From NCBI RefSeq assembly GCF_003610635.1, contig NZ_RAQJ01000004.1:124001-188000 (forward strand): a DNA stretch of 64,000 nucleotides. The letters run 5' to 3'. Source of the stretch: Ichthyenterobacterium magnum (GTDB taxonomy: Bacteria; Bacteroidota; Bacteroidia; Flavobacteriales; Flavobacteriaceae). The translations under genes were made by a program, and so were the position numbers. The notes beneath the pieces are model-generated. The model was given only the letters and a program-made list of their open reading frames with translations. It was not told the DNA's origin and ran no database searches. Below are positions 2,370 through 28,175 of the stretch, one piece after another; position 1 is the stretch's first letter, and every line of letters begins with the position of its first letter.

Positions 2370-5300
2370 ATGAACAAAATTGTCTACACCCTACTCACTT
2401 TTCTAATAATAAGCTCTTGTGCTGAAAACAAAAAGGAAAATTTAATTACTAAAAGCAAAGAAGATGCTAAGCTATTTAGTCTAATAAAACCTACACAAAG
2501 TAACATAACCTTTTCAAATAATTTAAAAGAGACTTATGAGTTTAACTTTCTTGTATATCCGTATATCTATATTGGCGGAGGTGTTGCGGTAGGTGATATA
2601 AATAATGATGGGTTACAGGACATTTATTTTACATCTAACCAAAATTCAAACAAACTATATTTAAACAAAGGTGATTTAAAATTTGATGACATCACAATAG
2701 CATCTAATACTAGTGATAGCGATGGTTGGAGTACAGGAACTTCAATGATTGATATAAATAATGACGGTTACTTAGATATTTATGTTTGTAAATCAGCATC
2801 CTTGAAAAATAAGGAAGCCAGAAGGAATAAGCTATATATAAATCAAAAAGACAATAGCTTTAAAGAAAGTGCAAAATCATATGGTTTAGATCATCCTGGA
2901 TTCTCAACGCAATCATACTTTTTTGATTACGATAAAGATGGTGATTTAGATATGTATTTAGTAAATCACAGACCAGATTTTAAAAATAACACAAAGATAT
3001 CTTCAGAAATACAAAGTAAAATTTATGATGAAAGTTCTGATCATTTATTTCGAAACGATGGAAATACTTTTACAAAAGTATCGGCATCTGCGGGTATAAT
3101 CAACAAAGCTTGGGGACTAAGCGCTTCTATTGGAGATTTTAATAATGATAATTGGCCAGATATTTATGTAGCAAATGATTATTTAGAACCAGATATGTTA
3201 TATATAAATAACAAAAATGGATCCTTTAAAAATGAAATACTAGATAGAGTCAAGCATATTTCATTTAATTCAATGGGATCTGATTTTGCTGATATTAATA
3301 ACGACTTACTTCCAGACCTTATAACTTTAGATATGCTAGCCGAAGACCATAGTAGGGGAAAAGAAAATATGGCAACTATGAGTACTGAAAATTTCAACAA
3401 CATTGTAAAAGTTGGTTATCATCATCAGTACATGGCAAATACTATGCAATTAAATAATGGTAATGGAAGCTTTAGTGATATTGGGCAACTATCTGGTATT
3501 TCTAAAACCGATTGGAGTTGGGCGCCATTAATTGCTGATTTTGATAATGACGGACTAAAAGATGTCTTCATAACTAACGGAATTGAAAAAGATTTTGCTA
3601 ATCAAGATTTTAGAAGAAACATAAAAAAGCTAAATCAACAAAATAAAGCTATGAAACTTGAAGATGTTTTAAACATGCTTCCTGCTGCAAAATTAGCTAA
3701 CTATATTTTCAAAAATAATGGTGATTTAACTTTTTCTAACCAACAAAAAAATTGGGGCTTAGACCAGAAGGTTAATTCTAATGGGGCAGCCTATGCAGAT
3801 TTTGACAACGATGGTGATTTAGACTTAATCGTTAATAATGAAAATGCTATAGCATCACTATATCAAAATAATTCAACAAATAATTACTTAAACATTAAAC
3901 TTAACGGAAATGACAAAAATAAATTTGCTATAGGAACAACTGTTAAAATCACTACCAATAAAGGACAACAATTACAACAATTATATACTAACAGAGGTTT
4001 TCAATCATCAGTTACTAATATTCTAAATTTTGGGATAGGCAATCAAAAAAGCATTAAATCATTAGAGGTTATTTGGCCAGATGGTAAAATTAGCAATTTA
4101 AACAATATTGATGCTAATCAATTGGTTGAGATAGATTATACTTCTGCTAAAAACAAAAACACAGCTAACAGTAAAAGTAATAATAACCTTTTTGCAGCTA
4201 TTAATTCATCAACATTGAGCATCAATTATAAGCATGATGAAAATTTGTTTGATGACTACTCTAAGCAATTACTTTTACCAAATAAACAATCCACTCAAGG
4301 ACCTTGTTTAAGTGTAGCAGATGTAAATGGTGATGGTTTAGATGATTTTTATGTAGGAGGTGCACACAAACAAAGTGCCCAATTATACATTCAATCTCAA
4401 GATAAGACTTTTAAACTTACAAATAATAGCGCCCTTATAAAAGACAAAAACTACGAAGATGTAGAATCTTTATTTTTTGACTCAGACAATGATGGTGATT
4501 TAGATTTATATGTTTGTAGCAGTGGTTATGAATTGAATGAAAACGACAGTTTACTCCAAGATCGCTTATACCTTAACGATGGTAAAGGTAATTTAACGCG
4601 AAGCAATAAGCTTCCAAAAATGTTATCAAGTACAAAAGCAGTTAAACCTATAGATTATGATGATGATGGTGATTTAGATTTAATTGTTGGAGGAAGAGTT
4701 ATTCCTGGTAAATATCCATTAGCTCCTCAATCATATATACTTAAAAACGATAATGGTACATTTAGTGATGTAACTAATGTTATTGCTCCTGATTTTAAAA
4801 CCATAGGAATGGTAACAGATATTGAAATCACAGATTATAATAATGATAAAAATTTAGATGTGATAATTGTTGGGCAATGGATGCCTATAACCCTATTTTC
4901 AATTGAAAATAACAAATTTATTAAACAAAATATTAAAGCATTTGAAAAAACAGAAGGTTGGTACAATTCTATCTCTGCTTCAGATTTTGACAATGATGGT
5001 GACATAGACTACATAATTGGTAATTTAGGAAGTAATAATAAGTTTCACCCAACTTTAGAAAAACCTTTACATATTTTTAGTTCAAATTTTGATAACAACC
5101 AAAGTTATGATATTGCACTAAGCAAATATTACAAAGGTCAATTAGTACCGGTAAGAGGCAAACAATGTTCATCTGAACAAACACCTTTTTTAAATGAAAA
5201 AATAGGATCATATAAAGAATTTGCATCTTTAAATATTGAAGGTGTTTATGGTAGTGATGCTATAGCAGATTCAAATCATATGATAGCTTATAATTTTAAA

Positions 5301-6806: not shown

Positions 6807-6822
6807 GTCGGGGTGGCAGGAT
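6807..6822. repeat. Left attachment site (att) of the integrative element
   Basis: A 16-base sequence, GTCGGGGTGGCAGGAT, identical to 34586-34601, which overlaps the 3' end of the tRNA-Pro gene. Only this piece of tRNA is present here. It is therefore the 3' fragment displaced when the element inserted. Confidence 0.9.
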
Positions 6823-6880: not shown

Positions 6881-6893
6881 TGTGAACCGAATT
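6881..6893 (+). repeat. Candidate integrase arm-type site, left end
   Basis: TGTGAACCGAATT occurs once here, 58 bases inside the left att site, and three times at the right end (34432-34487). Shared words near both ends of an element are typical of arm sites bound by the N-terminal domain of the integrase. The rest of the 6680-7000 gap holds only the terminator, the att site and AT-rich sequence with no visible gene. Confidence 0.65.
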
Positions 6894-7000
6894 GTAGACC
6901 TATCTGTTAGTTTGAAATAGTATTATTTATCTGAACGTCTTACTACAAATTTACAATTTTAACTCCATTAAAACCAGTCAATTTGTGTCAAATATTATGA

Positions 7001-7198
7001 TTAATCCATTAAATATTTGTCGACAATTTCCTCTTCTATTCCACTGTATTCAACGAATTCTTTAATTGTAACAAATTGGTGAGATTCCTTTCCAAAGTAG
7101 TTTCTAATATCATTTAAAAGCTTACGACCATAGCGTTCACTACGTCCTGTTATACGCTGAATATCCTTTGGGTATATGCAAGCTCTTTTTGGGGTCAT
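7001..7198 (-). CDS. Small helix-turn-helix-like protein
   Basis: 65 residues, basic at the N-terminus. The segment from 'KDIQRITGRS' to 'RKLLNDIR' has the spacing of a helix-turn-helix, followed by 'FVTIKEFVEYSGI', a second possible helical segment. Proteins of this kind appear in flavobacterial mobile elements next to cassettes like the one at 7419-8997, but I cannot name the family with certainty. It is the leftmost gene of the element and diverges from the 251-residue protein gene. The 220 bases between them carry a short hairpin (7281-7299, GGAAACCC/GGGTTTTC) and could hold promoters for both. Likely role: local regulator. Confidence 0.6.
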   Translation of the reverse strand: MTPKRACIYPKDIQRITGRSERYGRKLLNDIRNYFGKESHQFVTIKEFVEYSGIEEEIVDKYLMD

Positions 7199-7418
7199 GA
7201 TACTTTATCTATGCTTTATCCATACTTAAACCATACTACATGGATTTATGATGGTGGTGGTGATGCGTTGTTAAAATGTTGGAAACCCGAAAGGGTTTTC
7301 AATATTTTAATGACGTTTTTGGTTTTATCGGAATGGATGACCAAAAACGGAATATTCTTTTTTATTGCAAGCTATAAAGTTACGTGATTTGAAATATTAA
7401 ATCAAAAAACGAATTATT

Positions 7419-8174
7419 ATGGCAAAACAAACTGGTATTATTAAACTAAAAGGAACTATCGGTGGTATTTCCTTTTATAAAACTAGTGATGGACATCTAG
7501 CACGCGAAAAAGGTGGTGTTGATGCCAATCGTATTGCGAATGACCCAGCGTTTCAGAGAACGCGCGAAAATGGGTCTGAATTTGGACGTGCTGGCAAAGG
7601 TGGTAAAGTATTACGAAATGCTATTCGTATTCTTTTGCAGAATGCAAAAGATAAACGTGTAGTTTCTCGTTTAACCAAGGACCTATTGGCTATCATAAAA
7701 ACTGATACTACCAATGAGAGAGGTTTAAGGACTCTAACTGATGGTGATATGAACCTTTTATTAGGATTTGAGTTTAACCTCAACGGTAAATTAGGAACTA
7801 CCCTATTTGCTCCATTTGTGAATGCATTTGACCGTGTATCTGGTGATGCTACTTTAAATCTTGACCCCTTTTCTCCTACTTTAAGAATTGCTGCTCCAAC
7901 AGGAACTACGCATTTTAAAGTGGTTATGGGTGCAGCAGAATTGGATTTCGCCAATGAAGCCTCTGTTTTTGAAAGTGACGAAACTGCCATTCTTCCTTAC
8001 ACAGCTGCAGATACTGCTGCTATTGCTTTAACTGCTTCAATTACTGCAAACTCTACTGTTGACGTTATTCAAGTATTGGGTATTGAGTTTTATCAAGAGG
8101 TAAACGGACAAATGTACGAGCTTAAGAACGGTGCTTACAACGCTTTAGCTGTTGTTACTGTTGACACTCCATAA
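7419..8174 (+). CDS. Conserved element protein of unknown function (possible structural protein)
   Basis: 251 residues starting 'MAKQTGIIKLKG', with a Gly- and Lys-rich first 60 residues ('GTIGGISFYKTSDG', 'FGRAGKGGKVLR'). The last 100 residues are rich in Ala, Thr and Val and look beta-stranded, as in a beta-sandwich. There is no signal peptide, membrane segment or catalytic motif. It heads a tight operon with a DUF5675 protein (2-base gap) and two tiny membrane proteins. The basic N-terminus plus beta-rich body would suit a nucleic-acid-packaging or capsid-like protein, but that is inference only. I do not recognise an established family. Confidence 0.75.
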   Translation: MAKQTGIIKLKGTIGGISFYKTSDGHLAREKGGVDANRIANDPAFQRTRENGSEFGRAGKGGKVLRNAIRILLQNAKDKRVVSRLTKDLLAIIKTDTTNERGLRTLTDGDMNLLLGFEFNLNGKLGTTLFAPFVNAFDRVSGDATLNLDPFSPTLRIAAPTGTTHFKVVMGAAELDFANEASVFESDETAILPYTAADTAAIALTASITANSTVDVIQVLGIEFYQEVNGQMYELKNGAYNALAVVTVDTP

Positions 8175-8176
8175 TC

Positions 8177-8599
8177 ATGGAATTAGTATTGCATAGAGCT
8201 TATTTTGAAGAGGGTACCAATGGTACTCTCTTTAATTCTAACAAGTTCCTTTGTTATACCATCGAATTGCCCTGGAACAATAACAAACGTAATATTTCTT
8301 GTGTTTCTGAAGGTTGCTATGAAATTGAACCTCGCTTTTCAAAACGATTTAAGCATCATTTGATTTTGAAGGATGTTAAAGGTAGAAGTTTTATTCTTTT
8401 TCATCCTGCAAACAATGCTCAAAAAGAACTTGAAGGTTGTATTGCTCCAGTAACATATTTAAGTGGTATAGGAAAAGGCGTTTACTCTAAAAATGCTATG
8501 CAAAAACTACTGTCTTTGGTGTATCAAGCTAAAGACCGAAAGGAAACAATTTTATTAACTATTAAATCTCAAAATCATGAACATTGTAGAACGTTATAA
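8177..8599 (+). CDS. DUF5675 family protein, possible cell-wall enzyme
   Basis: 140 residues resembling DUF5675 proteins found in phages and Bacteroidota elements. The central part reads 'FILFHPANNA' followed about 8 residues later by 'EGCIAP'. The His...Gly-Cys arrangement recalls the HGxx...SxGC(I/V)R active site of YkuD-type L,D-transpeptidases, so a peptidoglycan-acting role is possible. That link is my inference. It follows the 251-residue protein by 2 bases and overlaps the next gene by 23 bases, so the three are co-expressed. Having holin-like proteins immediately downstream strengthens the lysis idea. There is no signal peptide. Confidence 0.7.
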   Translation: MELVLHRAYFEEGTNGTLFNSNKFLCYTIELPWNNNKRNISCVSEGCYEIEPRFSKRFKHHLILKDVKGRSFILFHPANNAQKELEGCIAPVTYLSGIGKGVYSKNAMQKLLSLVYQAKDRKETILLTIKSQNHEHCRTL

Positions 8600-8816
8600 A
8601 AAACCAACTCCGAAGTTTTTCAAAACTTTACGAAACATTGGCATCGCTTTGGCAACAGCTGGTGGTGCTATTATAGCTGCTCCTGTTAGTATGCCTGCCA
8701 TTGTAGTCACTATTGCTACTTATATGACTGTTGCCGGAACTGTAGCCACAGCTGTAAGTCAAGCCGTTGTAAAAGATGAAGATAATACAGAAACTGATGA
8801 GGCTAACAATGGATAG
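8577..8816 (+). CDS. Small membrane protein, holin-like
   Basis: 79 residues. A basic N-terminus ('ERYKKPTPKFFKTLR') leads into two hydrophobic stretches (about residues 23-43 and 44-65) rich in Ala, Gly, Val and Thr, with an acidic tail 'KDEDNTETDE'. Size and topology are those of small phage holins, but the family is not recognisable. It overlaps the DUF5675 gene by 23 bases and the next gene by 8 bases (ATGGATAG), which indicates translational coupling. Confidence 0.65.
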   Translation: MNIVERYKKPTPKFFKTLRNIGIALATAGGAIIAAPVSMPAIVVTIATYMTVAGTVATAVSQAVVKDEDNTETDEANNG

Positions 8817-8997
8817 CAATACCAAATCTGCCATTATTGGTGGTACTTTCTTTTCATCAATTATGAATATTGGTGTTGAAGATTTAATTACTACTATTGT
8901 TTTGGCTGTTGTTGGTGCTATCGTTAGTTTCTTCGTTTCATTACTTCTTAAAAAGGTTATCACTTTTCTCGGGGCAAAGTGTCGTAGGTGGAAGTGA
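8809..8997 (+). CDS. Small membrane protein, holin-like
   Basis: 62 residues from the ATG at 8809. This start is preferred over an ATG 33 bases upstream because it overlaps the previous stop codon in the ATGGATAG arrangement. One or two hydrophobic segments ('ITTIVLAVVGAIVSFFVSLL') are followed by a basic tail 'KCRRWK'. Together with the preceding 79-residue protein it makes a pair of tiny membrane proteins, like the holin pairs found beside phage endolysins. It ends the cassette; a terminator follows 32 bases downstream. Confidence 0.6.
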   Translation: MDSNTKSAIIGGTFFSSIMNIGVEDLITTIVLAVVGAIVSFFVSLLLKKVITFLGAKCRRWK

Positions 8998-9029
8998 TTA
9001 TTGATGTTAAGCGGTTGGAAAGATAAATA

Positions 9030-9060
9030 AAGGGCATTTTCAGAAAAATGCTCTTTTTTT
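9030..9060 (+). terminator. Terminator of the 7419-8997 cassette
   Basis: The hairpin AGGGCATTTT / AAAAATGCTCT (one G-U pair) is followed by a run of eight T. It lies 32 bases after the last gene of the cassette. Confidence 0.85.
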
Positions 9061-9308
9061 ATGCGCAGTGTTGAGGTGGGTAAGTGAAAAGAGTGATTCC
9101 CTGATAAGGGATTGAACGAATGGAATGCACCCTACCGCAGACAAAAGGCGAACATTAATAATTGCTGTAACCTACACCGTTGAAATGGGTGGTGGGGAAA
9201 AGATGGAAAAATTGTGGGCTCTAAATTTCAATGTCAGTTCTGAATTGAGCGTGGGGAATGTCGGATATTTAGTTCGCCACGTTTCTATTGTTTTAGAAGT
9301 GCTCATGA

Positions 9309-9360
9309 ATATCGGCTGTTAAATTTTAGCACCTATTTGAGGGCAAAGGCTAGCCGATAT
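9309..9360. repeat. Stem-loop 1 of 4
   Basis: The arms ATATCGGCT (9309-9317) and AGCCGATAT (9352-9360) pair perfectly over 9 bases around a 34-base loop. Confidence 0.75.
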
Positions 9361-9424
9361 TTTACATAATGGCGTTATAGTACAGAAAGTGAATGAATGC
9401 TACTATAACTGCGCATTATGTAAA
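9361..9424. repeat. Stem-loop 2 of 4
   Basis: The outer arms TTTACATAATG / CATTATGTAAA (9361-9371, 9414-9424) and inner arms TTATAGTA / TACTATAA (9375-9382, 9401-9408) form a two-part stem of 19 pairs with a small internal loop. It abuts stem-loop 1 directly. Confidence 0.85.
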
Positions 9425-9433
9425 TATAGCGGG

Positions 9434-9546
9434 ATAGCGTTTAAATTATTTGCTTTTGGCATTGTGCAGCTCTTTGCAGTTGTGTAATGAGGCACGAATG
9501 AAACAAGCTGTAATGTGCTGCAAAAGTGTGGCAATTTAAACGCTAT
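9434..9546. repeat. Stem-loop 3 of 4
   Basis: A perfect 14-base inverted repeat, ATAGCGTTTAAATT (9434-9447) and AATTTAAACGCTAT (9533-9546). The interior has further complementary pieces (CTTTTG/CAAAAG, CAGCT/AGCTG), which suggests one long branched hairpin. Confidence 0.85.
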
Positions 9547-9564
9547 AAAGGGATGGCGAGGGGA

Positions 9565-9618
9565 ACAAACTAAAAGACAGAGGATTTTGAGGAACGAAAA
9601 AACTGGGTTTTAGTTTGT
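9565..9618. repeat. Stem-loop 4 of 4
   Basis: The arms ACAAACTAAAA (9565-9575) and TTTTAGTTTGT (9608-9618) pair perfectly over 11 bases, with a purine-rich loop. Confidence 0.8.
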
Positions 9619-9632
9619 GGGGGTTATAACAT

Positions 9633-11540
9633 CTATAACTTATTATCAGTAATGTTATACTTGTTAAGTAAAAATTTATTGATCGCGCTTTTTCTTTTCA
9701 AATTCATAAAATATGTTTTTTCAGAAGTAGTAAATTCAGGAATACTAAAATTTTTAATATAATTTTTTGCTAAAGCATAATAGTTACTTGAATATGGCTT
9801 ACTTGTATGCTTTATATAATACCAAAATACTTCTGTTTTAAGTATTTTTTGAATAAATTTCAAATCATCTTCAGAATCAGATACTATAGCATAACCATTG
9901 TAAAACAATAAGTCTTCATTATTAGTAAAAACAAAATATGGCTTATCAGATATATACGGGAAAAGTAGTTTAAGACCAGGAATATTCAAAGCTTGACTCC
10001 TACCATAAGCAAACCATGTTTCATAATCTCTTTGACCTTTGTCTCTTTTAGATAACTCTTCTCTACAAGTATTTAAGTAGTTATATGCATTTGGAAAATT
10101 ACGTTCAAAAATACCAGGATCAAGCACACGAATCAATCGATTAGATTGTTGTTCAAATAAATCGTCATTGGTCTGTTCTATAACTTGATAAGGAAAAATG
10201 AGTTTTTCATTAAATACTTCCAAGTCTGTTTCGTCTTTTAAAATGTTAGGTTTAATTGCATTTCTACAAATTGCCCTTTCAACTTTAAACCTTTTTGAAT
10301 CTTTTTCAAGATAATAGAAATGTTCATCTTCATCAATTGGTTTAAATAAATATATTTTATTTCGAAGCGTTGCAAAGCCATTCCTAATATTAAACAAGTC
10401 TCCTAATTTTTTTCCAGAATTTTCTAGCCTCTTCAAAGCTAGCTGCGTTTGTGCATCATCTAATTGCCAACCATCAAAATCATTTAGACTTGAATACTCA
10501 AAATCTATAAAATCTGAATTAGTTAATTTATCTATTTTATGGGGCGTAGAACTTGTATAAGATAGGTTACCTGTTGACTTTGTGATTTGACAGATACAAG
10601 TATATGTTAATCTAGATTTGAATACTTGTTCACTTCCGAAGTCTATGAGTTTAAATTTAAAACTATTACTAGAAAAATAACTCCTTAACGCCCTTCCATT
10701 CAAACTTCTATAAAAATTATTTACAGTAATATAACCTAAAACTCCTTCTTCTTTTAACCATTTTAAGCCAATCTCAAAAAAAGGAATGTATAAATCCAAT
10801 TTTCCTGTAGATGTCACAGACCAATTTTTCATTAAGCTTTTTGTGTTTTCATCTAAATTCGATGAACCCACATAAGGTGGATTACTGAACACAAAGTCAA
10901 AACCTTCGTTGTTTCGTATTACTTGTGAGTTTTCAAACCAATCAAACTCAAGAGAATCACCTTTAAAGAGATTAAAATTAATATATTCGGGATCTTCTCC
11001 ATTATATAAAGCTAGTAGTGATAATAATATTCTTGTTCTTTCTATGCTATATTCTGTAATATCAATTCCATATAGATTTTCTTCAATAATTTGAGCGAAA
11101 CCTTTATTTGTTAACTCATGAACCTTTAAGGCGTATTCAAATAAAAAACCACCACATCCACAAGCTACATCACATACAGTTTTTAAATCTATATCATCTG
11201 CTAAAATGATTGAATTTGAGACTATAAAATCCCTAATATATTTAGGTGTATAGACAGCACCATTAACAATTTTATCACTTGGTGATATCACAAACTCAAA
11301 CAACTCAATCAAACATTCAAAATCAAAGGTTTGATTGTTCTCTCTAAAAAGTTTAGCAAAATTATTCAATGCTAAATAATCAGAATCTTCTTCCCCTATA
11401 AGCATTTCTAACAATAGTCTATTATTATTAACTACTAAAGAATTTTCATTACAAAAGGTAGTAACAATAAAACTATTTATTTTTTCAACTTTAAATGAAC
11501 TTGTTTCTAAAAACGAAAGTATTTTTTTATCTATGCTCAT
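9633..11540 (-). CDS. Adenine-specific DNA methyltransferase (Eco57I-like), with specificity region
   Basis: 635 residues. 'GAVYTPKYIRDFI' (about 94-106), as in HsdM/Eco57I enzymes, precedes SAM-binding motif I 'DVACGCGG' (124-131). The catalytic motif IV NPPY is at 220-223, so the target base is N6-adenine. The C-terminal half, from about residue 370, looks like a TaqI/Eco57I-type target-recognition region. I see no PD-(D/E)xK nuclease motif in the short N-terminus and no neighbouring nuclease gene, so a complete Type IIG enzyme is not supported. It is the last gene of the minus-strand run, 6 bases after the 262-residue protein gene. It may mark self DNA for the upstream genes or act as the output of the signalling pair. 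Confidence 0.9.
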   Translation of the reverse strand: MSIDKKILSFLETSSFKVEKINSFIVTTFCNENSLVVNNNRLLLEMLIGEEDSDYLALNNFAKLFRENNQTFDFECLIELFEFVISPSDKIVNGAVYTPKYIRDFIVSNSIILADDIDLKTVCDVACGCGGFLFEYALKVHELTNKGFAQIIEENLYGIDITEYSIERTRILLSLLALYNGEDPEYINFNLFKGDSLEFDWFENSQVIRNNEGFDFVFSNPPYVGSSNLDENTKSLMKNWSVTSTGKLDLYIPFFEIGLKWLKEEGVLGYITVNNFYRSLNGRALRSYFSSNSFKFKLIDFGSEQVFKSRLTYTCICQITKSTGNLSYTSSTPHKIDKLTNSDFIDFEYSSLNDFDGWQLDDAQTQLALKRLENSGKKLGDLFNIRNGFATLRNKIYLFKPIDEDEHFYYLEKDSKRFKVERAICRNAIKPNILKDETDLEVFNEKLIFPYQVIEQTNDDLFEQQSNRLIRVLDPGIFERNFPNAYNYLNTCREELSKRDKGQRDYETWFAYGRSQALNIPGLKLLFPYISDKPYFVFTNNEDLLFYNGYAIVSDSEDDLKFIQKILKTEVFWYYIKHTSKPYSSNYYALAKNYIKNFSIPEFTTSEKTYFMNLKRKSAINKFLLNKYNITDNKL

Positions 11541-11546
11541 TAATTA

Positions 11547-12335
11547 TTATATGATTTGAGGGCAAATTGAAATAGGGTTCCAATTAATTTGTGAGCCATT
11601 TAAAACTCTCCTATCCCAATGACTAGCAAAATTAATTGCATAAGGTTTTAAAAAAAGTCCTTGATATTTTTCTACTATAGCATTATACTCATCATTATTC
11701 TGCGTTAAGTTCCTCCAATTTAAAGGCAAGAAATTAGACAATAAGAAATCTATACCTAAAATTAAATCCATTGGATAGTGGGAAATTCTTGGAGGATTCA
11801 AAAAAAGTATTCCACCAGAATCAATTTCTTTTCCATGTTCATCAATCATTTTCTTTCCTCCAAATTGAAAGTGATAGCAAGGGTGTGCTTCTAGTGATTC
11901 ATTATCACCTTCTTTGTAAATATGTCTATCTAGATGATATGATGTCAGCATTTTTTTTTCTTTATGTTCTGCTTTTATAATTACATCAAAAGCGAGACTC
12001 TCTAGAGGATCATTAAAAGTCTGTAAGTGTTCTGTTTTACCTCTTATTTGAATTGTAAATAATAATTCAACGCTTTTGAGAGGGTGTGGTTTCGATTTTT
12101 CTGGCATTTTGGGAAACCTGAAAAGCACATCTGGAGCATCATATCCCCAAATATCTGGATCTGTAGGTTTATCATAAACTTGAGGTATGTATTTAGCATT
12201 ATATAAGTCTGAAATTGCTGATTGTATACCAGAAAAATTACTGTTTGGTAATTCTATAGATATAATTTGTAAAAAATTGCTAATATCTTTAGCTAATTCT
12301 TTTCTCTTTTTAAAAACTGCTTTCGGTATAACCAT
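11547..12335 (-). CDS. Unknown 262-residue protein of the putative defence operon
   Basis: I do not recognise this family. It is a soluble protein without signal peptide or membrane segment. Visible features are a central His-rich part ('SYHLDRHIY', then 'AHPCYHFQFGGKK'), a Pro-rich 'FRFPKMPEKSKPHP', and 'ILFLNPPRISHYPMDLILGID'. The clustered His and Asp residues could form a metal or catalytic site, but no known motif fits. It sits 2 bases after the receiver-domain gene and 6 bases before the methylase gene, so it almost certainly works with them. It is the most likely candidate for an unassigned effector or adaptor in the cluster. Confidence 0.8.
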   Translation of the reverse strand: MVIPKAVFKKRKELAKDISNFLQIISIELPNSNFSGIQSAISDLYNAKYIPQVYDKPTDPDIWGYDAPDVLFRFPKMPEKSKPHPLKSVELLFTIQIRGKTEHLQTFNDPLESLAFDVIIKAEHKEKKMLTSYHLDRHIYKEGDNESLEAHPCYHFQFGGKKMIDEHGKEIDSGGILFLNPPRISHYPMDLILGIDFLLSNFLPLNWRNLTQNNDEYNAIVEKYQGLFLKPYAINFASHWDRRVLNGSQINWNPISICPQII

Positions 12336-12337
12336 AA

Positions 12338-13429
12338 TTAATAGCCCTCTTTAAGATCATTGACCCTGTCTATCTCTGATGGATGAATTGAAATCTTTTT
12401 TCCTTTATAATCTCTCTCTAAAATTGATTCTAAAGAAATATACATTTTATCATGCCAAGGTTCTGAATCTAACATCTCTATTAAAATTCCATCTCTTACA
12501 TCTAAAGGTTTGTTATAAACTTTACAGACAGTCCAAAACTTACTACCACTTGCTTTTTCAATAGGCGTAGCAGGTTTTAATTCTGGTAGATTATATTGTT
12601 TCTTTATAATTTCAACTCTTTCTGTAGCATTCAAACTAATTAAAGGAGGGGATTTTGGAAAAACTTCTCTCCAATAGCTAACAAGTTTATGACTCCACCA
12701 CCGATTCCAAACTTGAGAATAAATACCATCATATTTAATATGCTTAAAAAAAACCTTAAGTTGTTCCCAATCTTGGGAAGCTTCAATATCTACCCCTAAT
12801 CTAGCAGCTAGAACCTCCTCGGAAATTAAAATGCCTTGTCTTAATACAATCTTTTTCAATACAAATTTTGATATGTCGTAAACTGAAGCAGAGTCTGAAT
12901 CATAAAACTTTGAGGGTAAGTTTACATTAATTAAACCACTTAAATCAACCTTCAAAATAGAATTCATTTTTTTTCCCTCTTCTTTAATTGTTTTATAAGC
13001 ATCTAATATTGAAATTATCTTTTGAGGATAATTATTAACTTCTCCGAGTTTTTGTTTAAAAAAAAGAAAATCAAACAAATCATGACTTGTTAAATCATAC
13101 TTATAATACTTCTCTAAATTATCTTGTGATGTCAAAAGAAAAATTGGAAATTCATTTTTGAAATTATTCTCCACAATTTTAGATCTTATTGCAGTAGCTA
13201 AACTCGGTGCTGTATAGTCAGCTGTATTTTCTTCATATTTTACTCCATCCAGTTTTAAATCCAGAATAACTCCATCTAATTCTTGATTACTAAAAATGAG
13301 ATCGCGTGTTTCTCCCAAATTAGATGGAGAATATGATTTTATCTCTAAATCAGAATTATCTGTTAAACTATCGGCAAAAGCATCACGCTTACCAATTTCG
13401 TCATCTATATATATTAAATTATAAGCCAT
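12338..13429 (-). CDS. Receiver-domain (response-regulator-like) protein with unknown C-terminal domain
   Basis: 363 residues from the ATG at 13429. An in-frame ATG at 13447 would add six residues but overlap the upstream gene by 29 bases. The first 140 residues look like a phosphoreceiver: the acidic pair and Glu of 'YIDDE' (numbering from the longer start, 15-17), the phospho-acceptor Asp63 in 'VILDLKLDG', Thr106 in 'FLLTS' and Lys131 in 'FFKQKL'. The remaining 220 residues have no DNA-binding motif I recognise, so the output is probably not ordinary transcription. The start overlaps the end of the dual-ATPase gene, so the two are coupled and probably form a kinase-regulator pair. Inserted residues around 'KYEENTADYTAPS' make the receiver unusual. 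Confidence 0.8.
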   Translation of the reverse strand: MAYNLIYIDDEIGKRDAFADSLTDNSDLEIKSYSPSNLGETRDLIFSNQELDGVILDLKLDGVKYEENTADYTAPSLATAIRSKIVENNFKNEFPIFLLTSQDNLEKYYKYDLTSHDLFDFLFFKQKLGEVNNYPQKIISILDAYKTIKEEGKKMNSILKVDLSGLINVNLPSKFYDSDSASVYDISKFVLKKIVLRQGILISEEVLAARLGVDIEASQDWEQLKVFFKHIKYDGIYSQVWNRWWSHKLVSYWREVFPKSPPLISLNATERVEIIKKQYNLPELKPATPIEKASGSKFWTVCKVYNKPLDVRDGILIEMLDSEPWHDKMYISLESILERDYKGKKISIHPSEIDRVNDLKEGY

Positions 13430-15767
13430 ATTCGTTAATTTCTTCATCTGTTGCTACTGGTAATTCAATTATAAAATTAGTTGAATAGTCGTCTATTTCA
13501 TTGCCAAGAGAGATATCTCCATTATAACTTCCAAGTATATCACTCAAAATTTTAAGTCCTAATCCCGTACCAGATAATTCATTTTTCATATTAGTTTTAT
13601 GCCCTTTAGGTGAAGAGGTAGTAAAAAATGCTGTAAAAATTTTATCACGATTTTCAGCAGGAATACCATCTCCATTATCTTGAAATTCTAAATATACTTT
13701 TTCTTCATCTTTATAAGCTTTAATAAAAATTTTGCCAACTTTGTTTGATCTCTTGATTGCCTTTTTTGCGTTACTATATAGGTTAAACAGAATAGAACTC
13801 CATTCTGAAACATGCATTTTACATGTAAATAAATCATAACCTTTATAATCCGTCTCTAGTGTTATATTATTCCTTTTTAGATCTGGACCTACTGATTTCA
13901 CAAAGGGTTTAATAACATCTCTCAATTCTATCGGTTTTAATTCTCTATTGACATTTTGTGAGATTGTTTCATCAAAATATGACGTATAGACTTCAAAAGA
14001 AGAAAAAGTTTCTTTAAGACGTACTGCTCTTTTGTACTCTTCTGTTGACTTTTTTAGATTGTCAATTAAAAATTTAGAATCTATTTTAAAAGCAGATAAG
14101 TATTGCATTATTTCATGGGTAAACTCTCCAATAATTAAACCAAGACCAGCTAAAACGCGAAGCATATTAAATTCTTCAATTCTCTCAACTGCATCCCTAA
14201 TACTTTTGGCTTTGTCTCTAATTTTTTTTGCCTTTTCTTTTTGTTTGGCATTTTCTTCTTCTTTTTTCTTGTTTTTAGAATCATCTTGATTATCAGACTC
14301 ATCTTTAGTATCTTCAGTACTATCAGCAATTTCGTCTAAATCGTCTGCTAATTTTTCTAAATCATCTGCTGCATCTAATAATGCTTCTTTAGGATTTCTA
14401 GAGTATTTAGCATCCCAATCCTTTTGGTCTGTAGTTATTTTAACACCTCTTTCTCTACCTACTCTAATTATTGCAGCAATCAACACTTTATATGAAAAGT
14501 CAATTAACTCATCATAAGCTTCATTTCGAAATAAGCCTTCTCTACTTGAAAGCTCTTGGAAGTTTTTATTTTTATCTTCAATCTGAATGAAACCAAAAAA
14601 GTTATTGTTACCATGAACAGGTAGGACTTTCCTTTTTCTTACTGACTCATCTAGTCCAAGCCAATCATTTTGCTTTTCTCCATAAGGAAGCACTCTAAAC
14701 CCATTTCTATACAGACGAATACCACCCTGTTCATCAGTTGCACTTCTTATATAACTCTCTATTTGTTTCGGGATTAAGTTCACATTAAAAACAAAATAAA
14801 ATGCTTTAAGTTGAATTCCCTTTAAATACACATATTTTTGAGCGTGATTATCATTATCATCAAATATGATTTGAGGTTTTTTTGTCTCTACATCATCTAG
14901 CTTACTATTGTTTATTTCCCAAAAAGCGTGACCATTATCATCAACATAACCATAAATTTCAGCCAATGCATGTTCAAAAAACATTGATTTTTCGTTAGCA
15001 ATAACATTATTATTTTTTTTACAAATGATTTTAAATCCTGAATCTGCTATTTTGTTATCAATAATTTTCTTTTTTGAAATTGGGAAAGGTTGTATTACAT
15101 CTAAAGCGTACCTATATACTCTTTTTATCATAGCTTCAGACCACCAATCTCTTAAGTTTTCTATTATTAACGTCGTACCGCTAACAATGTCTTTGTTTTT
15201 TGGGATTTCAATGATTTTATTTTGAATTAAAAATAACTCCTCATCCATTGCATATTTATTCCAATCTACAACAACTTTAAGTGCGTTTTTGTAATTAGAT
15301 GTTTGAGTAACTATGGTCAATTTGTCTCCCAATCTTTGGGCTGAAAAACGACCAATTCCTTTTTTACCAGCTCTTTTACGCTTATATACTGGTGAAACCG
15401 GCTCGTGAATTTTATCAGATGAAGAAATTCGCATAAAACCATTCACAAGTTGATTTCGTGACATTCCATTTCCGTTGTCTTCAACAGTTAAAGTTCCTCC
15501 AATACTATCAACATTTGCGAAATTTAATGTAGCCACTGTAGCATCGGCATCATAAGAATTTTTTATTAGTTCAGAAACAGCTGTTTCGTGTCTTGCAACT
15601 AGTTCTTTTCCTAATCTATCTATAACACCAGCGTCTACAGAAAAACGTACATTATCTTTATCCAAACTAGCAAGTTTATTTGTTAGCTTAAGGATTTTGT
15701 TAATATTATTAGGTTCGTCTGAAACTGCCTTCTGTAATTGTTCTTGTATTTCTTCTTTAGTGCTCAT
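13419..15767 (-). CDS. Protein with MORC/Hsp90-like and histidine-kinase-like ATPase domains
   Basis: 782 residues with two GHKL ATPase modules. The N-terminal one (about 40-200) has the N-box 'SELIKNSYDADA' (65-76), 'DNGNGM' (97-102) and the Gly-rich lid 'GKKGIGRFSAQRLG' (134-147), as in HSP90/MORC-type ATPases. A 250-residue middle region follows, then a charged coiled coil (about 465-535, many Lys/Glu/Asp). Next is an H-box-like 'GEFTHEIMQYL' with His551. The C-terminal ATPase has 'NLYSNAKKAI' (662-671), 'DNGDGI' (697-702) and 'GTGLGLKIL' (733-741), as in sensor kinases. There is no membrane segment. Followed by a receiver protein with overlapping ends, it looks like a cytoplasmic sensor kinase whose input is the MORC-like domain. 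Such double-ATPase proteins tend to occur in defence islands; its exact function is unknown. Confidence 0.85.
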   Translation of the reverse strand: MSTKEEIQEQLQKAVSDEPNNINKILKLTNKLASLDKDNVRFSVDAGVIDRLGKELVARHETAVSELIKNSYDADATVATLNFANVDSIGGTLTVEDNGNGMSRNQLVNGFMRISSSDKIHEPVSPVYKRKRAGKKGIGRFSAQRLGDKLTIVTQTSNYKNALKVVVDWNKYAMDEELFLIQNKIIEIPKNKDIVSGTTLIIENLRDWWSEAMIKRVYRYALDVIQPFPISKKKIIDNKIADSGFKIICKKNNNVIANEKSMFFEHALAEIYGYVDDNGHAFWEINNSKLDDVETKKPQIIFDDNDNHAQKYVYLKGIQLKAFYFVFNVNLIPKQIESYIRSATDEQGGIRLYRNGFRVLPYGEKQNDWLGLDESVRKRKVLPVHGNNNFFGFIQIEDKNKNFQELSSREGLFRNEAYDELIDFSYKVLIAAIIRVGRERGVKITTDQKDWDAKYSRNPKEALLDAADDLEKLADDLDEIADSTEDTKDESDNQDDSKNKKKEEENAKQKEKAKKIRDKAKSIRDAVERIEEFNMLRVLAGLGLIIGEFTHEIMQYLSAFKIDSKFLIDNLKKSTEEYKRAVRLKETFSSFEVYTSYFDETISQNVNRELKPIELRDVIKPFVKSVGPDLKRNNITLETDYKGYDLFTCKMHVSEWSSILFNLYSNAKKAIKRSNKVGKIFIKAYKDEEKVYLEFQDNGDGIPAENRDKIFTAFFTTSSPKGHKTNMKNELSGTGLGLKILSDILGSYNGDISLGNEIDDYSTNFIIELPVATDEEINEYGL

Positions 15768-15789
15768 AATATTTTAATCAATCGTTACA

Positions 15790-17154
15790 CTATTCTTGTT
15801 TTATTATTGCATTTCTTAACCTAAATAAAGGTTCCAAAATTACTTGTTTATTACCTATAGCTTGTTCTTGGGATAAGCCAGTATATTTATAATCGTCTAT
15901 AAATGTTATATTCTCGTTAACAACTTTCAACATTAGTTCTACTTCTTCATCGCTATAACTTATAAAGCTATCATTGCTTTTCAATTTGTCTTTTATATCC
16001 AATAAGGAATCCTCACCTGAATAACTTCCTTCCCTACCTCTATAATGGTCAATAGCTACAATAAGTGCTTTCGATTCTTGATTTGTAAGTACCAAATTGG
16101 TCCTAATAAATATTGAAACTGTAATATACCAATAGAAAAACGCTTCTGGATTGCTTTTCTTTAGCTTATTCAATTTATTGAACTGTTGGTTTTCAATCAC
16201 CCAATCTTTTACCTGTTCTGGATGGCTATATTTTTCTAGACTTACAATTTTCTCGTTTTTTAAAACTTCAGAAAGATAGGCTGTTTTTGAAGCTGCAGTT
16301 ATAGCTTCATCAATATTGAACCGTGAAATTGTGAAGTTTGTAAAATTGCTAATTCCTAATTGTAAATGTTTAAACTCTTCTGAATTCCTATCTCTTGTAG
16401 CTAATACATAACAGGCTTCTTGAGTGTCTTCTAATACCTGATTAGCAGAAACCTCTAATTTTCTGAATTTTATTTCTTCGTCAACTACTTTACTATAACT
16501 CTTCCTTACTACATTTAATTCTGACATATTATCCATTAAAAAGGATACATCAAATAACTGTTTAATGATTTCAACTGGTCTGTTTTTACTATATAGAATT
16601 CCAGTTGTTTTTGGGGCAAAAGCCGTTAGCTTATCTCCTAGTATAGCGTCAAATGTTGGTATTGGAACTGTTGTAATTGTTCCTGTTGTTTGAATCCAAT
16701 CATGTGCTATTGGTATTTCCATTAATTCCGGATATGGATTAGGGGTATATAATATATCCAACAATATTGGTTCTATGCTACCATCAACATTACTTGAGTA
16801 GTACATTTTAAAATGTCCTATTGGTGCATCTGGTGTATGTTTTCTATCATTGTCATCTTCCCAATGTGTAAATACACTTTCTTTACTTATTTTTTCTAAA
16901 ATAGCTTCTATTTCTTTTTGGGATTGCTCTGTGATTATATCAATATCTATTGAAAAGCGTTTCGGTTCTTTTGTAGCCAATAATAGTGCTGTTCCTCCCT
17001 TAAAAATAAAATCCAATCCATTTAATTTTAATTGCTCCAGAAACACTAATGCATAAATTACCTTCTCAATTAATTTAGGGTCAAACTTCTTTTTCCCTAA
17101 ATTTCTTTTGATTTCATAAATCCATTCTGGATGGTATGTTGTTGACTCTATCAT
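15790..17154 (-). CDS. AbiEii-type nucleotidyltransferase toxin
   Basis: 454 residues. The N-terminus has the nucleotidyltransferase signature of the AbiEii/AbiGii toxin family: 'FKGGTALLLA' (51-60) followed by 'SIDIDII', with the two catalytic aspartates Asp70 and Asp72. AbiEii toxins stop growth by transferring nucleotides to RNA targets and serve in phage abortive infection and element maintenance. The protein is longer than the classical toxin of about 300 residues, with a helical C-terminal extension. It follows the antitoxin gene by 21 bases and precedes the dual-ATPase gene by 22 bases, so a single transcript could cover both systems. Confidence 0.88.
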   Translation of the reverse strand: MIESTTYHPEWIYEIKRNLGKKKFDPKLIEKVIYALVFLEQLKLNGLDFIFKGGTALLLATKEPKRFSIDIDIITEQSQKEIEAILEKISKESVFTHWEDDNDRKHTPDAPIGHFKMYYSSNVDGSIEPILLDILYTPNPYPELMEIPIAHDWIQTTGTITTVPIPTFDAILGDKLTAFAPKTTGILYSKNRPVEIIKQLFDVSFLMDNMSELNVVRKSYSKVVDEEIKFRKLEVSANQVLEDTQEACYVLATRDRNSEEFKHLQLGISNFTNFTISRFNIDEAITAASKTAYLSEVLKNEKIVSLEKYSHPEQVKDWVIENQQFNKLNKLKKSNPEAFFYWYITVSIFIRTNLVLTNQESKALIVAIDHYRGREGSYSGEDSLLDIKDKLKSNDSFISYSDEEVELMLKVVNENITFIDDYKYTGLSQEQAIGNKQVILEPLFRLRNAIIKQE

Positions 17155-17163
17155 TAGTAATTA

Positions 17164-17197
17164 AGTTTTGGCAAATTATTCAATTTTTGCCAAAGTT
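17164..17197. promoter_or_regulatory. Operator-like palindrome between antitoxin and toxin
   Basis: TTTGGCAAA (17167-17175) and TTTGCCAAA (17186-17194) are separated by 10 bases. The spacing and arms match those of the palindrome at 17923-17958. It overlaps the antitoxin stop codon and the start region of the toxin gene, so it could control the toxin and downstream genes separately. Confidence 0.65.
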
Positions 17198-17934
17198 AAA
17201 TTAGTTAAATTTCCTACTTCATTTTCTCTATTGCGTCTATATGCGTAGCGCTTCATTTTATTTTTATTTACTTCATACTTCTCAAACACATTGAGATAAA
17301 TAGAATTAATTTCTCCTTGTTGTGCTGCATATACTTTAGCATCAATAGTCATATCGACCAATAATTTCTCCAGTGTGGGCACGGTTATTTTGTCTATTTC
17401 TTGAAGTGGTGCTTCAGATATTAAATGTTTTAAAATAATTACATCTTCGCTATTGCTGATATACAAATTGAATATTTCGGCATCAGGCTCTATGTAAACT
17501 TGCTTTCCTTGTTCTTTTAGTGCATGAAATACCGATTCTGTAACATCTTTATCCAACTCTAAAATGGTATAGAATTTAAATGGTTGATGTCTCATAAATT
17601 CGTTTAACCACTTTGTGTCCCAAACACAAAACTCTGCAAATGGGTATTCTTTTTTTATTTTATTATGTAAACGCTTTAACTTATTATCAATGGTAGGATG
17701 ATATGTTTTTTTTCCTTTTAGCGCATAAATTCCTCTTGATGGATTATTAATAATTCCCTCTTTTTTTAACCGAGATAAATATACATTTATAGTACTTTCC
17801 TTGAGTTCTGGAAAATCTGAAGTAATACAATCAACTAATTTAGCTTTTGAAATTGTTGATTGCTCTTCTAAATATGAAATTATTTTATCTTTTAAGAAAG
17901 TATCCACTGTTTTATACTGATTAAACTTTGGCAA
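17176..17934 (-). CDS. AbiEi-like antitoxin/transcriptional repressor
   Basis: 252 residues. The first 75 form a winged-helix-like DNA-binding domain ('STISKAKLVDCITSD', then 'STINVYLSRLKKEGII' and 'RGIYALKG'), the arrangement seen in AbiEi and DUF6577 antitoxins. The remaining part is the usual alpha/beta antitoxin domain. The frame begins at TTG 17934. There is no ATG nearby, and a GTG at 17907 is an alternative start. It lies directly upstream of the AbiEii-type toxin gene. The palindrome TTTGGCAAA-N10-TTTGCCAAA covers its start, and a second copy covers its end, so autorepression is very likely. Confidence 0.82.
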   Translation of the reverse strand: MPKFNQYKTVDTFLKDKIISYLEEQSTISKAKLVDCITSDFPELKESTINVYLSRLKKEGIINNPSRGIYALKGKKTYHPTIDNKLKRLHNKIKKEYPFAEFCVWDTKWLNEFMRHQPFKFYTILELDKDVTESVFHALKEQGKQVYIEPDAEIFNLYISNSEDVIILKHLISEAPLQEIDKITVPTLEKLLVDMTIDAKVYAAQQGEINSIYLNVFEKYEVNKNKMKRYAYRRNRENEVGNLTNLTLAKIE

Positions 17935-17975: not shown

Positions 17976-18659
17976 TTATTTTCTCTTATCAACACTTTCT
18001 TTATCAAATGCAATCAAATTAAAGAGTTGACGCATTCTGGAACGTACTCTGTTTCCGTATATTTCTTCCAGTTCTTGAGCATTGAGATTAGTGGTTGCGT
18101 GTGTTTTGACCCCTCGACTGCGCTCGGGGTGACTGGTTCTTACAAATAAATCGTAACGTGATAAAAGGATTTCACCCATGACATTACAGTCTTTACCAAA
18201 ATGTCTTCCGGTTGTTTCTACACCTAAATCGTCAAAACAATAGAAGCTGCTGTTTCCATATTCTTGAATAGTTTTATAACCAATGTTATTAAAAGCAAAC
18301 GTGATGTTTCTTGCTGGAATTAATTCGTAAGATTTTTGATGCGGTACAATGTGCCTTAAAAGCTTCATTAAACTGGTTTTGCCACAACCTACAGGACCAG
18401 ATAACAGAACTCCTTTGTTTGGATCGATATTTAGTTTTTCGCAAGCTTCAAAATCGCGAATAAAATAGATGCACAGCTTGTAAAGCACCACCTCATCTTC
18501 TTCATAAATCTTGAAGTTTTTGCCAAATAGCAACTTTCCTTTAGCGTCGAGATAAATCAGCATCTTATTGAAATCATACAGGATGTGATTGTCTTTAAGC
18601 TCGCCTAGGTGAAATTGGACGCCTTTTTCTATGATTATGTGAGGTTGATTTGTATTCAT
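17976..18659 (-). CDS. DnaC/IstB-like P-loop ATPase of the element
   Basis: 227 residues. Walker A 'GPVGCGKT' is at 88-95, Walker B 'FYCFDDLG' at 139-146, and an arginine-finger-like 'RVRSRMR' at 204-210. This is the pattern of small helicase loaders (DnaC, IstB). In Bacteroidota integrative elements such a gene commonly follows an HTH protein and a winged-helix protein, as here, and probably serves element replication. Odd feature: residues 175-184 ('TSHPERSRGV') are encoded by a palindromic REP-like sequence (18108-18133) inserted in frame just before the conserved 'THATTNL'. The insert may be tolerated in a surface loop or may weaken the protein. Confidence 0.82.
   Translation of the reverse strand: MNTNQPHIIIEKGVQFHLGELKDNHILYDFNKMLIYLDAKGKLLFGKNFKIYEEDEVVLYKLCIYFIRDFEACEKLNIDPNKGVLLSGPVGCGKTSLMKLLRHIVPHQKSYELIPARNITFAFNNIGYKTIQEYGNSSFYCFDDLGVETTGRHFGKDCNVMGEILLSRYDLFVRTSHPERSRGVKTHATTNLNAQELEEIYGNRVRSRMRQLFNLIAFDKESVDKRK
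18108..18133. repeat. REP-like palindrome inside the ATPase gene
   Basis: GACCCCTCGACTGCGCTCGG followed by GGTGAC. The ends are complementary (ACCCC/GGGGT) around CTCGACTGCGCTC, a well-known interspersed repeat type in Bacteroidota genomes. It is far more GC-rich than the gene around it and keeps the reading frame. Confidence 0.8.
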
Positions 18660-18705: not shown

Positions 18706-19242
18706 TTATAGAGGTTCGTTGTAATTTTTGTTTTTAGTTGTTTTTAGGTTGTTCGCATTTGGGGCACTGCTATTTCGTTTTGAATTGTTTTCAAAATCAT
18801 TAAAATCTGAATTTTTATAATTTCCCTGTTTATTAATGTTTTTGTTTTCTATAGTTTGTATATGTTTATATATAGGTACCAATGCTTGTCCATTGCTTGT
18901 ATCATTTTTGGGACTGTTATGTACCAATGCTTGTCCAGTACTTGTCTCGAATTTGAGCATCTTAATTTTACTGCCTTTATAAGGGTTGTGTGATGGTAAA
19001 TATATAATATAATTCCAGTGACTCAATTCTTTGATGCATCTGTGATAAGTAGATTTTGAGCCTATTTTGGAATACTTCATAACTTCTTCTCTGTTGATGT
19101 AAAATTCTTCCGGAAAGCGGTTGGTATTCCATAATTGGAATAATGCGACATAGAGACTTATGTGTGTTGGATTTAGTCTAGTGTCTTTTGAGAACTGTAA
19201 AAAGGCACCGTTTAGGTGTTTGATGTAATTAATAGCTTGCAT
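18706..19242 (-). CDS. Winged-helix-like replication or regulatory protein
   Basis: 178 residues from the ATG at 19242 ('MQAINYIKHLNG'). A longer frame to 19284 would begin 'MSLREAKRRGN', which is only the translation of a REP-like repeat, so I reject that start. The conserved part 'LNPTHISLYVALFQLW' followed by 'REEVMKYSKIGSKSTYHRCI' looks like a winged-helix DNA-binding domain. Similar proteins commonly lie upstream of a DnaC-like ATPase in Bacteroidota elements and may act as replication initiators. The C-terminal 60 residues are low-complexity and Asn/Lys-rich. It belongs to one minus-strand operon with the HTH gene and the ATPase gene. Confidence 0.75.
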   Translation of the reverse strand: MQAINYIKHLNGAFLQFSKDTRLNPTHISLYVALFQLWNTNRFPEEFYINREEVMKYSKIGSKSTYHRCIKELSHWNYIIYLPSHNPYKGSKIKMLKFETSTGQALVHNSPKNDTSNGQALVPIYKHIQTIENKNINKQGNYKNSDFNDFENNSKRNSSAPNANNLKTTKNKNYNEPL

Positions 19243-19245
19243 AAT

Positions 19246-19284
19246 GATGAGATTGCCACGTCGCTTCGCTTCTCGCAATGACAA
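19246..19284. repeat. Third REP-like palindrome, between two element genes
   Basis: The arms ATTGC (19252-19256) and GCAAT (19275-19279) surround a Cys/Thr-coding-like core CACGTCGCTTCGCTTCTC. It matches a widespread interspersed repeat type. It fills the whole gap between the 178-residue gene and the HTH gene and creates a false upstream start for the former. Confidence 0.75.
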
Positions 19285-19563
19285 CTAAAACTTATTATGA
19301 ATACGGTTATCTTCCATTACTTTTAAGATTTCTTCATAATCATAATAGATAACGCCACCAACTTTAGTATATGGTAATGTGCCATTGATGCGAAGATTTT
19401 GTAATGTTCCTGGTGAAATACTTAAAAGCTCGCGAACTTCTGGTGATTTGAGCCATTTTTTAGGCGCAAAACCTGATTGATGGTTAATGATTGCTTTGAT
19501 GTCTTCTAATAATTCTAATTTGAATTCTCGAAGATCTTCTGTAGTGATAATTGTTGCTGCCAT
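19285..19563 (-). CDS. Helix-turn-helix (excisionase/MerR-like) protein
   Basis: 92 residues. A helical N-terminus ('LREFKLELLEDIKAII') precedes a MerR-like/HTH_17 domain: 'WLKSPEVRELLSISPGTLQNL' with the wing 'LPYTKVGGVIYYDYEEI'. Proteins of this type are excisionase-like DNA-binding factors, standard in Bacteroidota integrative elements. It heads the operon with the winged-helix and DnaC-like genes. Its upstream region shares a 15-base word with the integrase upstream region, which may indicate common regulation. Confidence 0.85.
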   Translation of the reverse strand: MAATIITTEDLREFKLELLEDIKAIINHQSGFAPKKWLKSPEVRELLSISPGTLQNLRINGTLPYTKVGGVIYYDYEEILKVMEDNRIHNKF

Positions 19564-19839: not shown

Positions 19840-20568
19840 TTATTCGTCTGACTCTTCCATGCGTTTAAGTAAGGATTCTTTAAGCTTATCTATAAATTTT
19901 GTGCTATTCGTTTTACGAGCCCTTATTTCAATAAATGTGTGATAATAGTTACCTAATTCAATATTAAATACTTGCTCACACATTGATGCAACTTCCTTAA
20001 TATCAGCTGTGCCACTATTAATTACTCCACTACTATGAAGTGCGTAAATAAGTTCGATTAAATCTGTTTTGTTACCTGTCCAAAATAATTTGGATTGATT
20101 TTGAAATGGATTAATTGTTGTTTCCATATTATTGCTATTAATTAATTTATCAATTTCTTTCTTCAAATGAATTATAAGCATATCATAAGCAAGTATGGTA
20201 GCCACAGTTGTATCATGACTTGTAGAAAATTGAGGATCTGTAAAAAAGTGAAATGTATCTGGATGCAAACGAATATCTGCCTTTCCTCTTAAAAAATATT
20301 GCTCATCTAGAAACGTTGCACTTGTGCGATAATAATGATAGAACTCTAAATTATCATTAAAAAACACTTGTAGCTTGTTAATATAATTGTTGAGGTATTT
20401 GATTTGAGATTTACTGCTCCCACGAGGTCTTTTGCTTTCAACATTAAACAATTTGACATTATAAATAAGCCTACTATATATTTTAGGTTTGACATTTTTA
20501 AAAAAATAGATTTCATGTTCCTTATTCTTAAACTTAACATCCGCTACTAGATTTCTAATTTCTTGCAA
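19840..20568 (-). CDS. RteC-like element regulator, start codon uncertain
   Basis: 242 residues from a TTG at 20568. The C-terminal part ('WTGNKTDLIELIYALHSSG', 'DIKEVASMCEQVFNI', 'IRARKTNSTKFIDKL') is characteristic of RteC, the regulator that promotes excision of CTnDOT-type elements. The reading frame stays open 40 codons further upstream, to a TAG at 20689-20691. That part ('KYKQILSKLDNTLDNLEIEI') reads like the usual RteC N-terminus, yet it holds no ATG, GTG or TTG that would include it all. So either a non-standard start is used, or the start codon has been lost and the protein is shortened or dead. It lies upstream of the HTH operon, consistent with a role in controlling the element. 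Confidence 0.8.
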   Translation of the reverse strand: MQEIRNLVADVKFKNKEHEIYFFKNVKPKIYSRLIYNVKLFNVESKRPRGSSKSQIKYLNNYINKLQVFFNDNLEFYHYYRTSATFLDEQYFLRGKADIRLHPDTFHFFTDPQFSTSHDTTVATILAYDMLIIHLKKEIDKLINSNNMETTINPFQNQSKLFWTGNKTDLIELIYALHSSGVINSGTADIKEVASMCEQVFNIELGNYYHTFIEIRARKTNSTKFIDKLKESLLKRMEESDE

Positions 20569-21520: not shown

Positions 21521-21522
21521 GA

Positions 21523-22842: not shown

Positions 22843-22878
22843 TTTATTGGTTTAAATGGTTAAACTAAAGATCTTTAA

Positions 22879-24495: not shown

Positions 24496-24517
24496 AATGA
24501 TTGTTTTTAGTATTCAA

Positions 24518-26374: not shown

Positions 26375-26379
26375 GATAT

Positions 26380-26874: not shown

Positions 26875-26899
26875 AACGTATATATTTGTTTTTATACGC

Positions 26900-26907
26900 C
26901 AAAACTA
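26900..26907 (-). promoter_or_regulatory. Candidate -7 box of the fibre-gene operon
   Basis: TAGTTTTG on the minus strand matches TAnnTTTG and lies about 25 bases before the ATG of the T9SS protein. No clear -33 box was found. Confidence 0.4.
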
Positions 26908-28165: not shown

Positions 28166-28175
28166 TTAATCCAAT

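Follow-up and report, generated by a model that had tools for sequence, protein, structure and literature searches.

A recurrent gene cassette with predicted lysis functions at the edge of tRNA-integrated islands in Bacteroidota

For many defence islands, the way in which they move between cells is not known. The question is raised here by a compact set of genes in Ichthyenterobacterium magnum, located at 7419-8997 of the window (the whole 64,000-nt stretch of DNA that was analysed). A preliminary description had taken this set for a possible virion or lysis module and had considered a small non-tailed virus or satellite conceivable. Here we ask whether these genes form a unit, what kind of element carries them and whether they would build a particle, open the cell or serve some other purpose.

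Composition and recurrence of the cassette

The four open reading frames claimed for this interval were all found. The first, P251 (7419-8174, + strand; 251 aa), is modelled with a basic helical N terminus and an Ig/FN3-like C-terminal sandwich; it is followed by DUF5675 (8177-8599, +; 140 aa) and by two genes for small membrane proteins, TM79 (8577-8816, +; 79 aa) and TM73 (+). TM73 is open from 8776 to 8997 (73 aa), and alignment indicates that it probably starts at ATG 8809, giving a protein of 62 aa and an overlap with the TM79 stop as ATGGATAG. The strong terminator proposed after these genes is borne out by an intrinsic terminator stem at 9029-9056 (+), the region of which folds at -14.8 kcal/mol (z = -4.6). 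On the 3' side of the cassette, ~550 bp are non-coding and contain palindromes (9060-9620); a 65-aa open reading frame in this stretch (9125-9322) is matched in a further element (L224).

Relatives of P251 were sought in 84,980 species genomes and found at 261 loci, of which the best 80 (74-94% identity), all from genomes other than the host's, were read. Among these 80 relatives and the window itself, DUF5675 and TM79 were each present in 79 of 81 loci and TM73 in 78, and the order was the same. Gene order is conserved across many genera, and the genes co-occur far above chance. The preliminary description had called for this check, and the four-gene cassette passes it as a real and recurrent unit, with the amendment that a fifth gene, HTH65, belongs to the set; leaving aside loci truncated by a contig end, most of the 81 carry it. 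Within a set of 198 host relatives, 39 carry P251, and at 25 loci a DUF6943 gene is found close to the P251 cassette. PADLOC gave no defence match for the cassette genes, and no Rfam family reached the gathering score in the region.

HTH65 (7001-7198, - strand; 65 aa) is predicted to be a divergent small HTH-like regulator and has no significant Pfam match. Three phased 11-bp direct repeats (7200-7232; consensus ATRCTTTATCY), a putative operator or iterons, lie at its start codon. All of the 18 loci that were tested have two to four copies, mostly in exact 11-bp phase, compared with 0.15-0.33 for shuffled sequence. The repeats are present at most cassette loci, including that of a Cytophagia plasmid, and are rare or nearly absent where P251 occurs as a solo gene; the natural reading is that they form a putative operator for HTH65. 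The leader between HTH65 and P251 also contains a long hairpin of 20 pairs (7269-7312), which is kept in the group of elements at tRNA-Pro and absent in others.

A tRNA-integrated island and its movement

The cassette belongs to an island of 27.8 kb (6807-34601), in which it lies just inside attL, with the integrase at the opposite end. The attL site (6807-6822) is a 16-bp repeat, GTCGGGGTGGCAGGAT, corresponding to the 3' end of tRNA-Pro, and an exact copy forms attR (34586-34601) at the 3' end of the tRNA-Pro gene itself (34586-34661). In two related genomes (G005 and G008) the site is empty, and trxB, tRNA-Pro and the right-hand neighbour stand side by side. A 15-bp repeat, TGTGAACCGAATTGT, at 6881-6895 has copies near attR at 34463 and 34475 and is a putative arm-type integrase repeat.

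This arrangement is not confined to the window. The attL site occupies the same position relative to the cassette in >20 other loci, and in many loci the cassette lies ~170-220 bp inside a tRNA 3'-end fragment (tRNA-Pro, Arg, Ser and others). With the 21 tRNA sequences used, tRNA 3' ends were found in the left flank of 35 of 75 loci compared with 2 of 75 for a control stretch; further tRNA-like ends, recognised by eye at other loci, stand outside this count. Direct att repeats also bound elements of 16.7 kb at the same site (G029), 19 kb (G049) and 26.8 kb (G085).

Ten elements were read at length, and most of them share one backbone order: HTH65-P251-DUF5675-TM79-TM73, cargo, DnaC-like, DnaD-like, HTH_17, RteC, cargo and integrase. 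In the window the backbone genes beyond the cassette all lie on the - strand and comprise a DnaC-like helicase loader (17976-18659; phrog_50, E=4.6e-20), a predicted winged-helix/DnaD-like replication protein with no family match (18706-19284), an HTH_17 excisionase-like protein (19285-19563; PF12728), an RteC-family regulator (19840-20568; PF09357, E=8.7e-84) and a tyrosine integrase (33102-34355). The DnaD-like gene adjoins DnaC in 16 loci. Orthologues of the integrase in G029 and G049 are 84-91% identical, and the one in G029 has Phage_integrase, SAM-like and Arm domains.

The first cargo region is defence in both elements that were examined closely. In the window (9633-17934, - strand) PADLOC identifies a type II methyltransferase, a GHKL/restriction-like ATPase, AbiEii and AbiEi; in G029 the defence set is Wadjet-like. 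The cargo of the G029 element (L112, 5031-11201 and 14128-17516) further includes a UvrA-like ABC protein, a TetR-like protein and a RibD_C gene. Judging by sequence only, the second cargo region of the window (20831-32999) encodes sensor kinases along with a LytR-type regulator, a protein resembling serine beta-lactamases, and two large proteins whose ends look like endosialidase chaperones.

Two observations bear on mobility. Copies in Polaribacter marinus and Tenacibaculum haliotis share 99.99% identity across the 9.3 kb that were retrieved; the match sets in within a few bases of attL and continues as far as the retrieved sequence reaches, while the flanks are unrelated, which indicates recent transfer between genera of marine Flavobacteria. 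The only PLSDB record with P251, Marivirga p1, is a 25.3-kb circular 'plasmid' in which the integrase lies directly beside HTH65, as expected of an excised circle; several genes are broken in this record. The relaxase PF03432 is absent from the whole genome of the window, so the earlier statement that conjugation genes are lacking holds as far as this family goes. Because of the backbone, the tRNA att sites, the replication genes and the recent intergenus transfer, a satellite-like status is plausible for the island. Of the preliminary suggestion of a small virus or satellite, the satellite-like part is thus plausible, but no packaging gene or helper phage was found.

With phage satellites (P4-like, PICI and PLE) the island shares a tRNA att site, a tyrosine integrase, an HTH excisionase-like gene, a replication module, defence cargo and a lack of detected conjugation genes. 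It differs from them in having no recognised capsid-hijacking or packaging gene, none of these and no cos/pac site being recognised in the compact 16.7-kb G029 element, and in carrying its own lysis genes. Ordinary phage satellites normally use the lysis genes of the helper phage, which counts against reading the cassette as a release module. The Bacteroides NBU/IME and CTnDOT-type elements likewise have an RteC-family regulator, a tyrosine integrase and an excisionase-like HTH protein, but the island has no detected relaxase (PF03432) and does have a lysis cassette and DnaC/DnaD-like genes. The Charybdis elements, 4.6-kb archaeal circles, are also virus-like and mobile without hallmark genes (PMC12324425); compared by description, their genes differ from those of the island. 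In the literature searched, which covered only a minority of subscription papers, no description of this element or of DUF6266, a family discussed below, was found.

Predicted endolysin and holin-like proteins

The assignment of the second gene to DUF5675, made in the preliminary description, agrees with a match to the PF18925 profile of 103 bits (curated cut-off 26.7; E = 1.1e-29). When an AlphaFold2 model (pLDDT 85) was compared by VIA-align, every chain with Z > 3 was an L,D-transpeptidase-fold enzyme, and the next row scored 2.7. The closest structures were DpaA (Z 9.0), Pgp2 (8.9), Bd1075 (8.6), YkuD (8.5) and Csd6 (8.3), followed by Tlde1a (7.6) and Ldt enzymes (6-8); Foldseek alone did not make the YkuD fold convincing and placed Csd6 at rank 4. 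The L,D-transpeptidase-like His...GlyCys arrangement noted earlier corresponds to His76, Gly87 and Cys88, which are invariant in 31 DUF5675 sequences. The prediction that DUF5675 is a YkuD-fold, L,D-transpeptidase-like enzyme active on peptidoglycan is supported by this model. The protein has no signal peptide and no transmembrane or hydrophobic segment. Such a build is typical of a holin-dependent endolysin and not of cellular L,D-transpeptidases, and we infer that DUF5675 would depend on a holin for access to the wall. In several viral contigs and prophages DUF5675 adjoins holins (GTA_holin_3TM, Phage_holin_4_1, Phage_holin_3_3) or Rz-like genes, and in crAss-like phages it is annotated as a 'transpeptidase catalytic domain protein'. 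A microvirus (L165, MH992181.1) also has a DUF5675-like gene (3024-3380), flanked by the genes for the major capsid protein and the DNA pilot protein and possibly serving in lysis.

Hydropathy shows two hydrophobic segments in TM79 and one or two, with a basic tail, in TM73. Relatives of TM79 were found in 185 contigs of IMG/VR. In 20 non-redundant viral loci, its neighbours included 5 Amidase_2 proteins, ~5 M15 peptidases and 3 CHAP proteins, and a peptidoglycan hydrolase lay just 3' of TM79 in about 12 or more of the 20. Most of these loci also have a membrane/coiled-coil protein just 5' of TM79, and a protein built in the same way accompanies TM79 in P251 cassettes of another family (L139 and L223). 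This context supports the prediction that the TM79 family is holin-like.

The cassette resembles the holin-endolysin cassettes of Bacteroidota phages, in which a homologous TM79 is followed by a peptidoglycan hydrolase, the enzyme has no signal peptide, and DUF5675 can stand beside holins and Rz-like genes. It differs from them in that its enzyme is of the YkuD fold, P251 comes first and phage structural genes are not recognisable in the island. In 160 viral loci we found only the cassette family that had been used as query, and DUF5675, TM79 and TM73 never occurred together. As none of these viral loci had two cassette families, the combination does not reproduce any one known phage cassette. 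Of the two halves of the preliminary reading, virion or lysis module, the lysis half is supported by the YkuD fold and by the synteny with phages, and we consider a lysis function of the cassette somewhat probable. Several points weigh against it. Phages do not usually employ YkuD enzymes as endolysins, and some members of this group remodel the wall rather than destroy it; no spanin was recognised among the five cassette genes; and the three lysis genes were together in none of the viral loci.

P251 and competing readings of the cassette

P251 had no match above the cut-off in Pfam, NCBIfam or PHROG, and so did not prove to be a known non-viral enzyme. Judged by sequence comparison, it is a widespread Bacteroidota family without a Pfam entry. 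It has no signal peptide and no transmembrane segment. In the window, the helical N-terminal half carries a charge of +12 and the C-terminal half one of -13, and this contrast of a basic and an acidic half is kept in most of the family. Comparison of divergent elements places P251 with the best-conserved backbone proteins; in G113, for example, its identity is 83%, compared with 43% for the integrase. Distant relatives of P251, solo or with an HTH65-like gene, are common and lack lysis genes, which indicates that P251 has a role outside lysis. The solo relatives of ~40% identity (one in the host genome, G000:C1:57432-58169, and others at L132-L138) usually have an HTH65-like gene, and several of them lie within clusters for polysaccharide biosynthesis or in variable regions of other kinds.

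A second family recalls this one. DUF6266 (PF19781) resembles P251 in length and in an N-terminal Gly-rich motif, and it likewise occurs with DUF6943 and small HTH genes. Membership of P251 in DUF6266, prompted by the N-terminal motif, is not supported by profile comparison (hhalign probability 0.3 of 100; no Pfam match). Together with DUF6943 and a small HTH gene, DUF6266 makes up another recurrent set (L425-L430; C8:20139 and C3:162831 in the host), which frequently adjoins clusters for heavy-metal resistance. At the edges of islands, the roles of P251 and DUF6266 may be comparable.

The island and its cassette are best read as an integrative, satellite-like element that carries a lysis module of its own, derived from phages. 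That the cassette is the release module of integrative, satellite-like Bacteroidota elements seems to us slightly on the probable side of even. HTH65 would repress the operon through the 11-bp phased repeats. Upon induction, the integrase would excise a circle, arranged like that of Marivirga p1, to which the DnaC/DnaD-like proteins may recruit the host replisome, and P251, DUF5675, TM79 and TM73 would be expressed. TM79 and TM73 would then permeabilise the inner membrane, allowing the signal-less DUF5675 to reach and cut the peptidoglycan; judging from the fold and the phage synteny, the cell would lyse and release the element. Our best guess for P251, as a product of the same operon, is that it accompanies the released element out of the cell, or coats or protects it. 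The DNA might exit packaged, by way of a helper phage or naked, or the outcome might be release of P251. The common solo P251 genes without lysis genes count against this release reading.

The last of these outcomes leads to the first rival, a unit similar to type 10 secretion, in which the lysis genes would free P251 from a subpopulation of cells and transfer of the element would be incidental. Type 10 secretion is a case of phage-derived lysis genes serving protein release (PMC10847048). An Ig-domain protein without signal peptide or transmembrane segment, placed first in the operon and among the best-conserved of the backbone, would suit such a cargo. However, P251 lacks the variability expected of a secreted weapon, the cassette goes together with an integrative element, and solo P251 genes lack lysis genes; we regard this explanation as unlikely. 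Slightly less likely again is that the cassette is a persistence or wall-remodelling module, in which DUF5675 and the membrane proteins, under control of HTH65, would alter the envelope (surface exclusion or stress tolerance) without lysis. Here the closest YkuD structures, which include the cell-shape and wall-editing enzymes DpaA, Pgp2 and Csd6, and the solo HTH-P251 pairs in polysaccharide loci are consistent with remodelling, whereas the missing signal peptide of DUF5675 and the synteny of TM79 with phage endolysins argue against it.

Whether P251 could instead form a particle was addressed by fold and virus searches. The P251 model is moderate (pLDDT 68), and its C-terminal domain is a generic Ig/FN3/C2-like sandwich. 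Searches with this model against the PDB gave only such generic sandwiches at Z <= 7.6, a level reached by unrelated models; BFVD gave E-values no better than 4.8e-3, and the fold matches of this moderate model included no capsid protein. No relatives of P251 were found in viruses in three IMG/VR scans or in INPHARED. An undescribed small non-tailed Bacteroidota virus or satellite, with P251 as a particle or DNA-coating protein, defence cargo, replication as a circle and exit by its own lysis module, is improbable, and a true virion a little more so. Least probable is that the cassette is the virion module of such a new virus or satellite with P251 as its particle protein, for although the basic and acidic halves, the adjoining lysis genes and the lack of any other detected transfer gene would fit, the virion half of the preliminary reading is not supported, as P251 has no viral relative by sequence and no informative match of its moderate model in BFVD or the PDB, no packaging ATPase was seen, and solo copies occur in many genomes.

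In summary, we describe a recurring family of islands, integrated at tRNA genes and with sharp boundaries, that combines integration, replication and a phage-derived lysis set, and in which no conjugation gene was found. Functions are proposed for DUF5675, as a YkuD-fold endolysin, and for the TM79 family, as holin-like proteins, and P251 is singled out. Our results suggest that a non-conjugative island family may leave its host by breaking the cell open. If the lysis set releases the element, this would be a transfer route in which the island supplies its own exit from the host and, if true, a test case for the spread of AbiE and Wadjet defence genes between genera.
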